DNA of 64,000 nt from an uncultured Clostridia bacterium (GTDB taxonomy: Bacteria; Bacillota; Clostridia; Lachnospirales; CAG-274), in the NCBI GenBank assembly GCA_947589665.1, contig CANQBJ010000002.1, forward strand, positions 1 through 64,000, read 5' to 3'. The first letter of the stretch is position 1, and each line of letters opens with the position of its first letter. Positions 38,388 through 42,152 of this stretch are shown here, in pieces. The notes under the pieces were generated by a model. It ran no database searches and was not told where the DNA came from. It saw only the letters and a list, made by a program, of their open reading frames with translations. Both the position numbers and the translations under genes were made by a program.

Positions 38388-38421
38388 AAAAAACATAGGG
38401 GACAGCCCTGAGACTGTCCCC
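38388..38421 (-). terminator. Terminator of the second secreted-protein/peptide operon
   Basis: GGGGACAG/CTGTCCCC with an 8-nt loop, followed by TATGTTTTTT on the minus strand, 8 nt after the stop of the small peptide gene. Confidence 0.88.
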
Positions 38422-38428
38422 ACAAATT

Positions 38429-38560
38429 TTAGAAGAAATCGACTTCGCCGAATTTAATGCCGTTAAATTTACTCTTAAGCTGACCTACGGCGCTTATAGT
38501 TATAATATCCTGTGAGTTGATGCTTGTTATAATTAATTCGGGTTTAATATATTTTTTCAT
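38429..38560 (-). CDS. YIKP-family small peptide, 43 aa, unknown function
   Basis: A 43-residue frame starts at ATG 38560 with GGAGG 9-10 nt upstream, 15 nt after the stop of the 832-aa secreted protein. It aligns without gaps to the 49-aa peptide at 1786-1935 over the first 23 residues (M1, YIKP 4-7, I11, QD 17-18, I20, T21, S23), then diverges into a tail rich in K, F and G ending in DFF. No signal peptide is visible. Identical placement behind a secreted-protein gene and before a terminator supports a functional pair. No modification enzyme or transporter is nearby, so a RiPP role is not supported directly. Confidence 0.78.
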   Translation of the reverse strand: MKKYIKPELIITSINSQDIITISAVGQLKSKFNGIKFGEVDFF

Positions 38561-38575
38561 AACACAATTTCCTCC

Positions 38576-41074
38576 TTAATCTAAGCTTACAGCCGCAGTG
38601 CCGCCGCTGACATTTACTTCTTCGTAGTCGGATGCATTATTGTATTCATCTGCTGTACAAGCTTTGATATAAGCATAAGCATCCGTTGAATACAATTTAT
38701 TGATTATAAGTCCGAATGTACTATCACCAGTATTGTCGGCAGTGAGCCTATATTTATATGTTGCACCACTAGAATTAGCCTTATAAATACATGTATTTTT
38801 ATCATCATAGGCAACATAGCTGGCAGAGTTACTAGGTTTGGACAAACCATTAGGGAAGTTTATATTTGTACCTATTCTTATATATGTATTCTGAGGACTG
38901 CTTGGAACTATAACGTCAAAGAGAAGATATGCCTTTTCTCCTTCAACCTTTAAAATATCGTCTATAAAAGCTGTTGAGACGGAGCTGTTTTCAGCAGTAG
39001 CAGCCGGATTATTTTCTACTGTTTCACCGTTCATTACATGTGAACTCTCAAAACGTTCGTAATTCGTAGCAGATGTATTAATTTGAGTATTTTTACCCTT
39101 TACATAAGACGCTATACCCTTTATCTGGGCTTTGAACTCCCATTCATTATCACTGAAGGAGCTTACGCAGGTATGATTTCCTAATTGTGATGTAACAGTA
39201 GCAGTTCCGTTTGTAACAAGAGTATCCCCTACTTTAGCAGTAGCCTCATAATTACCCATTTTAACTGTTTCACCTATTGTACCGGAAATTACACCTAAAT
39301 TGTATCCCTGACCAACAAAACTGCTTTTGCCGGCATCGTCAAGCTTGCCTACAATAATGTTATTATTATTAAAAGCTGTTATACTTCCCGCTACAGCAAA
39401 TCCGGTATTTCCATATATAGCGCAGCCAAGCAAACCAAATGTGTTACCAGAGTATTTACTTGCATTGTGAACAGCAGCGTTACCGGGGATTTCATCATCT
39501 GCATTTATATTCTTTATAACGGTGCCGCCCTTTATATAAAGATATCCCTCGTTATGTATACCGCACATAACCTTTTCGGATACTGAAGAATCGGGACCTT
39601 CTCTTCCGTCTATAGTAACATTATCGAGTGTAAGAGTTGCATTTCTTTCTACTCTTATTATTGCTGTTGAAACATTTCCTGCTCCGTCCTTATGATATAT
39701 AGGACCGCCTGTAAGAGTAACCTGACCTTCTGTGATCGTTACACAATTATTTGAATTTGTGCTGGCTACGGTAATTCCCTCCTGAGGTACGGTTACAGTT
39801 ATGCCTGTATAAGTACCTTTAATAGTGAGGTCTGTATATGTTTTGTTTTCAAGTGTGCAGGGTGTATGTATATCCTCAACAGGAGCTATGTTGATTTTAC
39901 ATTCCGCAGAAAAAGTATCTGATGTTGTAGCTTTGACAGTAGCGGTACCTGAACCCGTTGCAGTTATGATTATAGTATTTGAATCACCCGGCTTTGCCTT
40001 ATATGTTATAGGTCCCGTCGTTTCCCAACTTGCTACGGTTGTATGACCTGCTGCACAATATATCTGTGCTGTAAGTTCCGCTGTTCTTTGACCTTCTCTC
40101 ATACTGAGATTAATTTCATCTACATTGAAATGTATTTCGTGTATATGCTCGTCTTCCGCTCTTCTGAAATGCCACTTGCCATTATAGAACATACCTGTAA
40201 ATTCTTTGCCGTCTATTTCAGTCACTATGTCATGAGTGGGATTGGCAACAAGATTTGCGCCCTCTTTGGCAGTAACGCTAATACTGTCTGTTTTATCCGT
40301 AACTGTACCGCCTGTAGCATTCTCAATAATACCTGCGTTATATTCGCCCGAAATATTATATGAGCCAACCAAAGCACCTGTCATAAGTCCGCCGTTTATA
40401 GTAACGATACCACGCATATTATACAATGCTTTTCCCGCATCATATACAGTACCGCCGTTAAAATTTACAGAACCACTATATGCCATAATAGCAGCGCCGC
40501 CGCGTACAGTAATGCTATGTATAGAACCGCCGTTGACATTTACCGTTCCTGTACTGAATATTGTAGAACCGTATACAAAAGCGCTATCTGTATTGATATA
40601 AGCTATCTCTGCTCCTTTTTCGATATTCAATTCTGCATCTTCGGCAACCTCAATACCATATGTAAGGCTTTGTGTTTTATCACTACTGCTCGGTATGCCT
40701 TCAACATCTTTGCCCCTGCCGTATATAGTAATATCGGCAACAGTAAGGCTTGCATTTTTAGCTACCTTTATAATAGAGGCTGAGCTTGCATTTGTATCAT
40801 TTTTGTGGTAAATATGTCCGCCTGTCAGTTTGACATAACCATCCGCAATAGTGATACAATCTTTACTTCCGGCACTTTTAACTGTAATGCCGTTTTCGGG
40901 TACTGTTATTTCTAAAGGAGCTTCCTTATCAGCAGAACCATGGATAACAATTTCTGTATGGTTTCCCTCAGAAAGTGTGGTATTCTCTGAAATCTCCTCT
41001 GCCGCCATAGTCATAACGGACATAGCGAAAGCTGCCACAGCTGTCAGTAAAAACAGCTTAAAAAATTTCCTCAT
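38576..41074 (-). CDS. Secreted beta-helix-like protein with internal duplication
   Basis: An 832-aa protein with a signal peptide (1-24). Two homologous blocks, about 30-290 and about 405-640, share the words ITV..EGITV.S, C[IV]TI..G.V.LTGG.IYHK and LTV..[IV]TI.GR. Their short strand repeats suggest a pectin-lyase-type right-handed helix. Between them (about 310-400) is a Big_2-like immunoglobulin domain (GSGTATVKATTSDTFSAEC). The last about 190 residues form a separate domain. No catalytic residues or anchor motif are recognisable; it could be an adhesin or glycan-binding protein. AAGGAGG precedes ATG 41074. Upstream are its own promoter, a terminator and the candidate invertible promoter. 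Confidence 0.82.
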   Translation of the reverse strand: MRKFFKLFLLTAVAAFAMSVMTMAAEEISENTTLSEGNHTEIVIHGSADKEAPLEITVPENGITVKSAGSKDCITIADGYVKLTGGHIYHKNDTNASSASIIKVAKNASLTVADITIYGRGKDVEGIPSSSDKTQSLTYGIEVAEDAELNIEKGAEIAYINTDSAFVYGSTIFSTGTVNVNGGSIHSITVRGGAAIMAYSGSVNFNGGTVYDAGKALYNMRGIVTINGGLMTGALVGSYNISGEYNAGIIENATGGTVTDKTDSISVTAKEGANLVANPTHDIVTEIDGKEFTGMFYNGKWHFRRAEDEHIHEIHFNVDEINLSMREGQRTAELTAQIYCAAGHTTVASWETTGPITYKAKPGDSNTIIITATGSGTATVKATTSDTFSAECKINIAPVEDIHTPCTLENKTYTDLTIKGTYTGITVTVPQEGITVASTNSNNCVTITEGQVTLTGGPIYHKDGAGNVSTAIIRVERNATLTLDNVTIDGREGPDSSVSEKVMCGIHNEGYLYIKGGTVIKNINADDEIPGNAAVHNASKYSGNTFGLLGCAIYGNTGFAVAGSITAFNNNNIIVGKLDDAGKSSFVGQGYNLGVISGTIGETVKMGNYEATAKVGDTLVTNGTATVTSQLGNHTCVSSFSDNEWEFKAQIKGIASYVKGKNTQINTSATNYERFESSHVMNGETVENNPAATAENSSVSTAFIDDILKVEGEKAYLLFDVIVPSSPQNTYIRIGTNINFPNGLSKPSNSASYVAYDDKNTCIYKANSSGATYKYRLTADNTGDSTFGLIINKLYSTDAYAYIKACTADEYNNASDYEEVNVSGGTAAVSLD

Positions 41075-41122: not shown

Positions 41123-41151
41123 ATTATACCATATTATGAACAAATAAGCAA
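41123..41151 (-). promoter_or_regulatory. Proximal promoter of the 832-aa secreted protein
   Basis: TTGCTT (41151-41146), 17-bp spacer, TATAAT (41128-41123). GAACAA at 41138-41143 lies in the spacer and an inverted TTGTTC at 41175-41180 lies upstream; similar boxes precede the other secreted-protein operon. Confidence 0.7.
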
Positions 41152-41218
41152 GGTTTTTTAACAATTTACAAATTTTGTTCATATTTTAGGATAAAAATAA
41201 TTCTATGTGAATGTATAT

Positions 41219-41244
41219 AAAATAAAAAATTCTCCTTTCGGAGA
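41219..41244 (-). terminator. Terminator between invertible promoter and secreted-protein gene
   Basis: TCTCC-GAAA-GGAGA stem followed on the minus strand by ATTTTTTATTTT. Transcripts from the promoter at 41394-41366 would meet it before the secreted-protein gene. The stem is short (5 bp), so read-through is possible. Confidence 0.65.
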
Positions 41245-41264
41245 TAAATGTCGCATTTTGTCAC

Positions 41265-41455
41265 GCTACTTATTATATAATTAAGTCGCATTAAGTATAT
41301 GCAAAAACTTAAGAAATATACGCGTTTCAGACAACTGATTGAAATTATTTTCTTATGTACATATTATTATACGCAAAAGAAATAGTGTTGTCAAGACGTA
41401 TTTTTATAAAAAAAGAAAAAAAGTGCATAGGCGACTTAATTATATATTGTGTCGC
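41265..41455. promoter_or_regulatory. Candidate invertible promoter flanked by recombinase sites
   Basis: Two 25-bp sites in inverted orientation, 41265-41289 and 41431-41455, each consist of 5-bp inverted arms (GCGAC with GTCGC or GTAGC) around a 15-bp AT-rich core. They share the 16-bp perfect word GCGACTTAATTATATA. The 141 bp between them carry TTGACA-17-TATAAT on the minus strand (41394-41366) and TTGAAA-17-TATTAT on the plus strand (41339-41367), with overlapping -10 boxes. A tyrosine recombinase gene begins 18 bp outside the right site. Inversion would swap which promoter faces the recombinase and which faces the secreted protein. Confidence 0.75.
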
Positions 41456-41473
41456 ACTGATTGGAGGTAAATT

Positions 41474-42040
41474 ATGAATCTTACACATCCTATAAGGGAT
41501 AATAAAGATATTAAAAAGCTCAAGAATTATTTTCTTATGAGAGAAGAATACAGGAACTATATGCTCATTACATTCTGTCTTAATACCGCTCTAAGAATAA
41601 GTGACATTTTAAATATGAAATGGTCGGATATTCTGGACGGCAATAATAAGATACGCTCCCATGTGGTCCTTAAGGAAATCAAGACCGGAAAGACTTCGGA
41701 AATACTCATTAACAGCAGTATAAAGGAGGCTGTAAGGCTTTACCTTAAAAACTGTGACAAGAGCAGGAGCATATATCTCTTTGACAACGGGAACGGCTAT
41801 CATATTTCCCGCTCTCAGGCTCACAGAATAATACACGCCGGAGGTGTAGGGGCAGGCATAGGCAACGACATAAGCTGTCATTCGCTCAGGAAAACCTTTG
41901 GATATCACGCTTGGAAAAGCGGTGTGCCGCCTGCATTGCTTATGGAAATATACAACCATAGCTCATATGCCGTTACAAAGAGATATTTGGGAATAATACG
42001 AGAGGATAAAGATGCTGTATTCAGCAAGATATTATTATAA
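41474..42040 (+). CDS. Small tyrosine recombinase (FimB/FimE-sized invertase candidate)
   Basis: A 188-aa protein consisting only of the tyrosine recombinase catalytic domain. The residues are complete: R41 (TALRISDIL), K70 or K73, H136 and R139 (CHSLRKTFGYH), H162 (IYNHSSYAVTKRY) and nucleophile Y171. The absence of a core-binding arm and the length resemble FimB/FimE-type DNA invertases rather than phage integrases of about 380 aa. GGAGG lies at 41462-41466. It lies beside the inverted recombination-like sites at 41265-41455 and probably acts on them. Transcription would come from whichever promoter of the switch faces right. No phage genes are nearby. Confidence 0.88.
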   Translation: MNLTHPIRDNKDIKKLKNYFLMREEYRNYMLITFCLNTALRISDILNMKWSDILDGNNKIRSHVVLKEIKTGKTSEILINSSIKEAVRLYLKNCDKSRSIYLFDNGNGYHISRSQAHRIIHAGGVGAGIGNDISCHSLRKTFGYHAWKSGVPPALLMEIYNHSSYAVTKRYLGIIREDKDAVFSKILL

Positions 42041-42078: not shown

Positions 42079-42152
42079 AATACGGCTTGCGGCTTGCTAC
42101 ACCGAAATAATTATCCCTTTTAACAAGTATAGCTTGCAAGCCGTATTTTATT
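42079..42152 (+). terminator. Hairpin after the recombinase gene
   Basis: AATACGGCTTGC/GCAAGCCGTATT, 12-bp perfect arms with a 45-nt loop, followed by TTTATTG. It makes the recombinase gene monocistronic and separates it from the convergent YqxD-like gene. Confidence 0.6.

Follow-up and report, generated by a model that had tools for sequence, protein, structure and literature searches.

Invertible promoters located beside small tyrosine recombinases are well known, and most of those described drive another gene, leaving the recombinase outside the loop. The fimS/FimB–FimE and ipuS/IpuA systems of E. coli combine a small single-domain recombinase with a short promoter segment, inverted repeats and surface-protein outputs; in both, the promoter drives a non-recombinase gene, ipuR–upaE in the case of ipuS (PMC6083910). 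In gut Clostridia, inverted-repeat segments beside tyrosine recombinases are represented by the invertons of group 139 (invertase group 35) and group 145, and nearby invertases are generally not positioned to be driven by the inverton promoter, with group 145 as a potential exception (PMC11892184). The RecV switches and Cdi7 of C. difficile, 154–230 bp in length, are further clostridial tyrosine-recombinase inversions; RecV serves several distant switches, and only Cdi7, which contains an ORF, adjoins its own recombinase gene (PMC5903667).

The locus considered here lies in a 64,000-nucleotide stretch of the genome of an uncultured Clostridia bacterium (the window). It shares its general components with these systems, but differs from fimS and ipuS in that its promoter would drive the recombinase itself, with any payload gene following behind. 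The same geometry sets it apart from the gut invertons as their survey describes them, and in contrast to RecV each recombinase has a private pair of sites. No described recombinase whose own promoter is inverted, with a payload behind it, was found in the open-access literature. It is probable, at roughly three chances in four, that the locus is a self-contained, self-inverting and self-limiting recombinase switch.

Organization of the proposed switch in the window

The module and its recombinase consist of the following features, from left to right:

41221–41244, minus strand: terminator-like hairpin (TCTCC-GAAA-GGAGA with a T run), pointing leftward, left end of the module
41249–41264, plus strand: direct repeat TGTCGC-N4-TGTCAC immediately next to the left site, candidate binding sites for accessory factors
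41265–41289, plus strand: left recombination site, with a predicted 7-bp overlap at 41274–41280 (TATATAA)
41290–41430, no strand: presumed invertible segment of 141 bp between the sites, with flipped forms in relatives
41339–41367, plus strand: weak promoter-like TTGAAA-17-TATTAT directed at the recombinase, not conserved
41394–41366, minus strand: consensus promoter TTGACA-17-TATAAT, facing away from the recombinase (OFF form)
41431–41455, minus strand: right recombination site, with a predicted 7-bp overlap at 41440–41446
41463–41467, plus strand: ribosome-binding site GGAGG of the recombinase, read from the sequence
41474–42040, plus strand: tyrosine recombinase of 188 aa, catalytic domain only (PF00589)
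42079–42147, plus strand: inverted repeat AATACGGCTTGC / GCAAGCCGTATT with a T run, 3' of the recombinase, read by eye

The preliminary description of this DNA had pointed to two inverted 25-bp sites and to two opposed promoters with overlapping −10 boxes, and all of these were recovered at the positions and with the spacing it gave. The site arms, 25 nt each and 141 nt apart, are complementary at 21/25 positions (84%). When the 400-bp intergenic region was shuffled with its dinucleotides preserved, a pair at 21/25 arose in 1/1000 shuffles, and a perfect promoter on either strand in 6/2000 shuffles of that region. By itself the inverted pair reaches significance without being decisive; the case is made by comparison with other copies. 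The plus-strand TTGAAA-17-TATTAT is found only in the window copy among 29 homologous modules; being peculiar to it, this weak promoter may be a product of chance, or perhaps provides basal recombinase expression. Downstream of the recombinase, the AATACGGCTTGC / GCAAGCCGTATT repeat with its T run likely marks the end of the transcript.

The site half ATAATTAAGTCGC has exactly two perfect occurrences in the 2.23-Mb genome, namely the window sites in inverted orientation. Since it is found nowhere else without a mismatch, the window recombinase has no obvious target elsewhere, and a genome search returned no further pairs of these sites; a candidate trans target at C5:592 was inspected and dismissed. 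Inside the segment, beside the left site at about 41295–41325, lies a conserved block, TATATGCAAAAA-N-TAAGNAAATATRCG, which recurs in many modules.

The leftward (OFF) transcript was also considered as a possible regulatory RNA. Rfam returned zero matches on the window switch, and folding of the OFF transcript gave a z-score of −1.7, with 10/200 shuffles folding equally well, which leaves no case for RNA structure other than the hairpin. A 15-nt perfect direct repeat, AATTATTTTCTTATG, occurs at 41343–41357, near the predicted start of this transcript, and at 41525–41539 within the recombinase coding sequence. The OFF transcript would carry the complement of these 15 nt (0/1000 shuffles) and could pair with the recombinase mRNA through them. 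In the two nearest relatives the corresponding match is 12 nt (8/1000 shuffles) and 10 nt (94/1000), and it is absent elsewhere; with weak matches in only these two, an antisense OFF transcript was ruled out as a general feature.

The recombinase

The encoded protein is a tyrosine recombinase by both profile score and catalytic residues (R-K-H-R-H/W-Y). It matches PF00589 over residues 22–172 with E = 1.7e-27 and 96.7 bits against a cut-off of 27.1, and alignment to 4a8e places an intact set at R41, K73, H136, R139, H162 and Y171; the six positions are kept in 37–38 of 38 aligned proteins. At 188 aa, restricted to the catalytic domain, it is of FimB/FimE-like size (about 200 aa), which bears out the earlier description of a FimB-sized enzyme beside the switch. 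Its scores of 42.4 and 42.9 bits against the FimB/FimE models NF007370 and NF007371 fall far below their cut-offs (221 and 222) and place it outside that subfamily. Small plasmid-borne tyrosine recombinases of Bacillota of about 187 aa (for example WP_013603294.1 of B. subtilis plasmids) share 43–44% identity, the same length and the same catalytic residues, and at the two plasmid homologues inspected by eye no upstream module was recognised.

Homologous modules in the genome and the family

Comparison of sequences establishes a module with site pairs, matching cores and leftward terminators, which occurs in both orientations among relatives and is missing at the orthologue of the neighbouring surface-protein gene. 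The order is constant: leftward terminator, site, promoter, site, ribosome-binding site and recombinase, present in 5 copies in the window's genome. A 301-bp stretch spanning the window switch matches three other places in this genome, and four close paralogues of the recombinase (72, 68, 67 and 55% identity) are each preceded by a module with a perfect leftward TTGACA-17-TATAAT and a leftward T-run hairpin. At five paralogous loci Rfam found nothing but tRNAs.

A survey of 48 genomes of the family collected 41 recombinase loci, 29 of which, in 14 genomes, carry an upstream inverted pair matching at least 18/22; these 29 modules are related to each other, and counts over them are not independent. 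Site columns 7–13 are identical between left and right in all 29 modules, and between modules their identity is 0.47–1.00. For the 6-bp core, identity is 1.00 within a pair versus 0.70 between modules, a level reached by 0/5000 permutations. A core that is identical within pairs and variable between them fits strand exchange by a tyrosine recombinase, and the 7 bp of columns 7–13 are inferred to be its overlap. A pair of regulator-binding sites was rejected as an explanation, as it would not demand a core matched within pairs. The window copy has the core-matched inverted repeats around a promoter that characterize an inverton.

The flanks of the sites are asymmetric. Leftward hairpins were found by our own terminator scan in 18/29 modules, against 1.9 expected from shuffles, and rightward ones in 8/29; the hairpin sequences differ from copy to copy. 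In 17/29 modules the motif TGTCRC-N4-TGTCAC flanks the left site on its outer side, always in the same register; the right site is flanked by it in 2/29. This left direct repeat would stay put on inversion and could set its direction.

Several related loci depart from this arrangement. At G011_C30 (L082) there is a single site: the ribosome-binding site follows immediately on the left site with its accessory repeat, as though this copy had lost the segment. Among the Lachnospiraceae homologues the close inverted pair is mostly absent. Recombinase homologues without a close pair (L085–L088 of G009; Lachnospiraceae loci, for example L126 and L149, where the csrA identity was read by eye) often adjoin a csrA-like gene, which at G009_C5b is followed by a flagellin-like gene. 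Viral contigs gave 8 recombinase matches at 39–48% identity, 2 of which, judged by eye, have a comparable inverted pair; such a pair lies upstream of related recombinases at L125, L143, L151, L198 and L201, which comprise Clostridial contigs and two labelled viral. After the stop codon in L100, L062, L067, L065 and L063 there is a conserved, hairpin-capable stretch, TAAAATTRCRG ... TTTTTCATGTTC ... CTGYAATTTTA, on which Rfam gave zero matches where it was scanned.

Orientation of the promoter

The promoter faces away from the recombinase in 25/29 modules, perfectly matched in 23 and with one mismatch in 2. No promoter is present in 2/29, and in the other two, G011_C26 and G025_C11, a perfect promoter faces the recombinase. 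The G025_C11 segment aligns to that of G023_C44b, from the same genus, with a score of 65 as its reverse complement and 20 as it stands, the maximum over 500 shuffles being 37. G011_C26 is the only module that is clearly nearer to all others when reversed, and its alignments are weak singly, reached by 0 to 3 of 500 shuffles depending on the partner. Neither flipped copy has, at the same place, a close orthologue in the opposite orientation. Because these two modules face the recombinase and also align better reversed, flipped and unflipped forms both occur among relatives. The search of related genomes for an inverted form, which had been put forward as a check on the switch, thus returned two examples.

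The gene behind the recombinase

A co-directional gene follows the recombinase in 21 of 28 modules, mostly less than 200 bp away. By a crude rule, 14 of these genes begin with a signal peptide; two are Wzz-like in our own reading of the sequence and two are HTH-looking. In relatives this gene is likely the payload of the switch, and surface-protein phase variation is probably real in the family, exerted through it. None of the four readable copies in the window's genome has a co-directional gene in this position.

Proposed mechanism

In the proposed switch, the recombinase would act on the two sites upstream of its own gene and invert the 141 bp that carry one strong promoter. In the OFF form, this promoter would fire leftward into the terminator and yield only a short RNA, roughly 135 nt long. 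In the ON form, reached by inversion, it would drive the recombinase and any gene behind it. The ON form of relatives would thereby often be a phase-variable operon of recombinase and surface gene (a secreted, Wzz-like or HTH protein), and that of the window's genome would express the recombinase alone, nothing co-directional lying behind it. Since ON would produce the very enzyme that ends ON, this state should be short-lived, in keeping with the preponderance of OFF forms seen among assembled copies. Flipping in this strain, activity of the promoter and self-limitation are the parts of the model that we infer.

It is unlikely that the family switches while the window copy is a relic locked in the OFF form. 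Such a reading would accord with the outer arms, which are the less alike part of the window site pair, with the missing payload, and with the fact that the second orientation has not been seen in the single assembly of this species; yet the reading frame is intact with all six catalytic residues, and matching cores, a consensus promoter and private sites are all retained.

Autonomy and possible mobility of the module

The self-inverting switch must also be weighed against a minimal mobile element, some 0.8 kb in length, whose sites would serve movement and whose promoter flipping would be a by-product. The C49 and C1 copies are 95.6% identical over 804 bp, a likeness bounded by the hairpin and the stop codon, outside which the flanks are unrelated; C57 and G004_C5, which lie in different contexts, agree at 86% over 809 bp, and related recombinases occur on many Bacillota plasmids. 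However, inspection by eye of the unit ends found neither a terminal repeat nor a target duplication, and certain loci keep their flanks and are orthologous between species (G000_C46/G001_C2; G003_C5/G004_C2/G002_C93), so that movement must be rare. Moreover, the two sites are located to the same side of the gene in inverted orientation, which implies inversion, not excision. That the unit is primarily a mobile element is thus improbable, and we retain the switch as the preferred reading.

The adjacent surface-protein gene

To the left of the module lies a divergent gene, which the preliminary description had taken as the output of the switch:

38576–41074, minus strand: secreted repeat protein of 832 aa, a neighbour and probably no target
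41123–41151, minus strand: the surface gene's own promoter TTGCTT-17-TATAAT, outside the module, conserved in G001

In the sister species G001, the orthologue of this gene (78% identity) has the same TTGCTT-17-TATAAT close to it, and its upstream region is occupied by two tRNA genes, with no module. G001 also preserves the gene order (surface gene, small peptide, rpsB, tsf), including the 47-aa peptide gene (38420–38561) between surface gene and rpsB, which is 83% conserved in the same place. Over the promoter of the surface gene lies an inverted repeat, TTATACCATATTATGAACAAA / TTTGTTCATATTTTAGGATAA (41124–41144, 41174–41194), a possible operator.

The left neighbours of the other copies in the genome are unrelated (a ferredoxin gene beside a tRNA, fumarase, RqcH-like); the C49 copy is near its contig end. 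Across modules, left neighbours lie on either strand and include a HAD hydrolase. On the other side, G002, G003 and G004 retain the genes found to the right of the window module (YaiI-like, epimerase, sugar transferase, capD-like) without an adjacent recombinase. With a leftward hairpin intervening and neighbours conserved where the recombinase is missing, the module stands as a unit of its own, shielded from the gene to its left, and the surface gene is probably not a target of the switch.

The least probable reading is the one originally proposed, in which the surface-protein operon to the left and the recombinase to the right exchange their strong and weak promoters whenever the segment inverts: the OFF promoter does face the surface gene on the same strand about 290 bp away, a weak forward promoter is present and read-through of a terminator with a 5-bp stem is conceivable, but a leftward terminator (41221–41244) with counterparts in 18/29 modules stands between, the gene's own promoter is conserved in the switch-less G001, left neighbours elsewhere are unrelated and on either strand, and the weak promoter is not conserved. 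Control of the surface gene by the switch falls with this exchange, given the G001 orthologue without a switch and the unrelated left neighbours of other copies. What survives of the original phase-variable switch is an invertible-promoter module with feedback on its recombinase, for which the 29 modules, matched cores and two flipped copies speak.

Implications for uncultured gut Clostridia

The target of the switch is corrected by these results: in relatives, attention belongs with the gene that follows the recombinase rather than with the divergent gene. More speculatively, and with less than even confidence, these modules may be autonomous cassettes of about 0.8 kb with private sites that have spread in uncultured gut Clostridia, duplicated as units and repeatedly gained surface payloads, and whose transient ON state would make them pulse generators and not two-state switches. 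With a loop closed on the recombinase, many copies and private sites, the family would be a naturally occurring system in which to test self-limiting DNA switches. It may serve equally for studying how recombinases are matched to their overlap sequences, and for the phase-variable surface genes of those gut Clostridia that are known from assembled metagenomes only.
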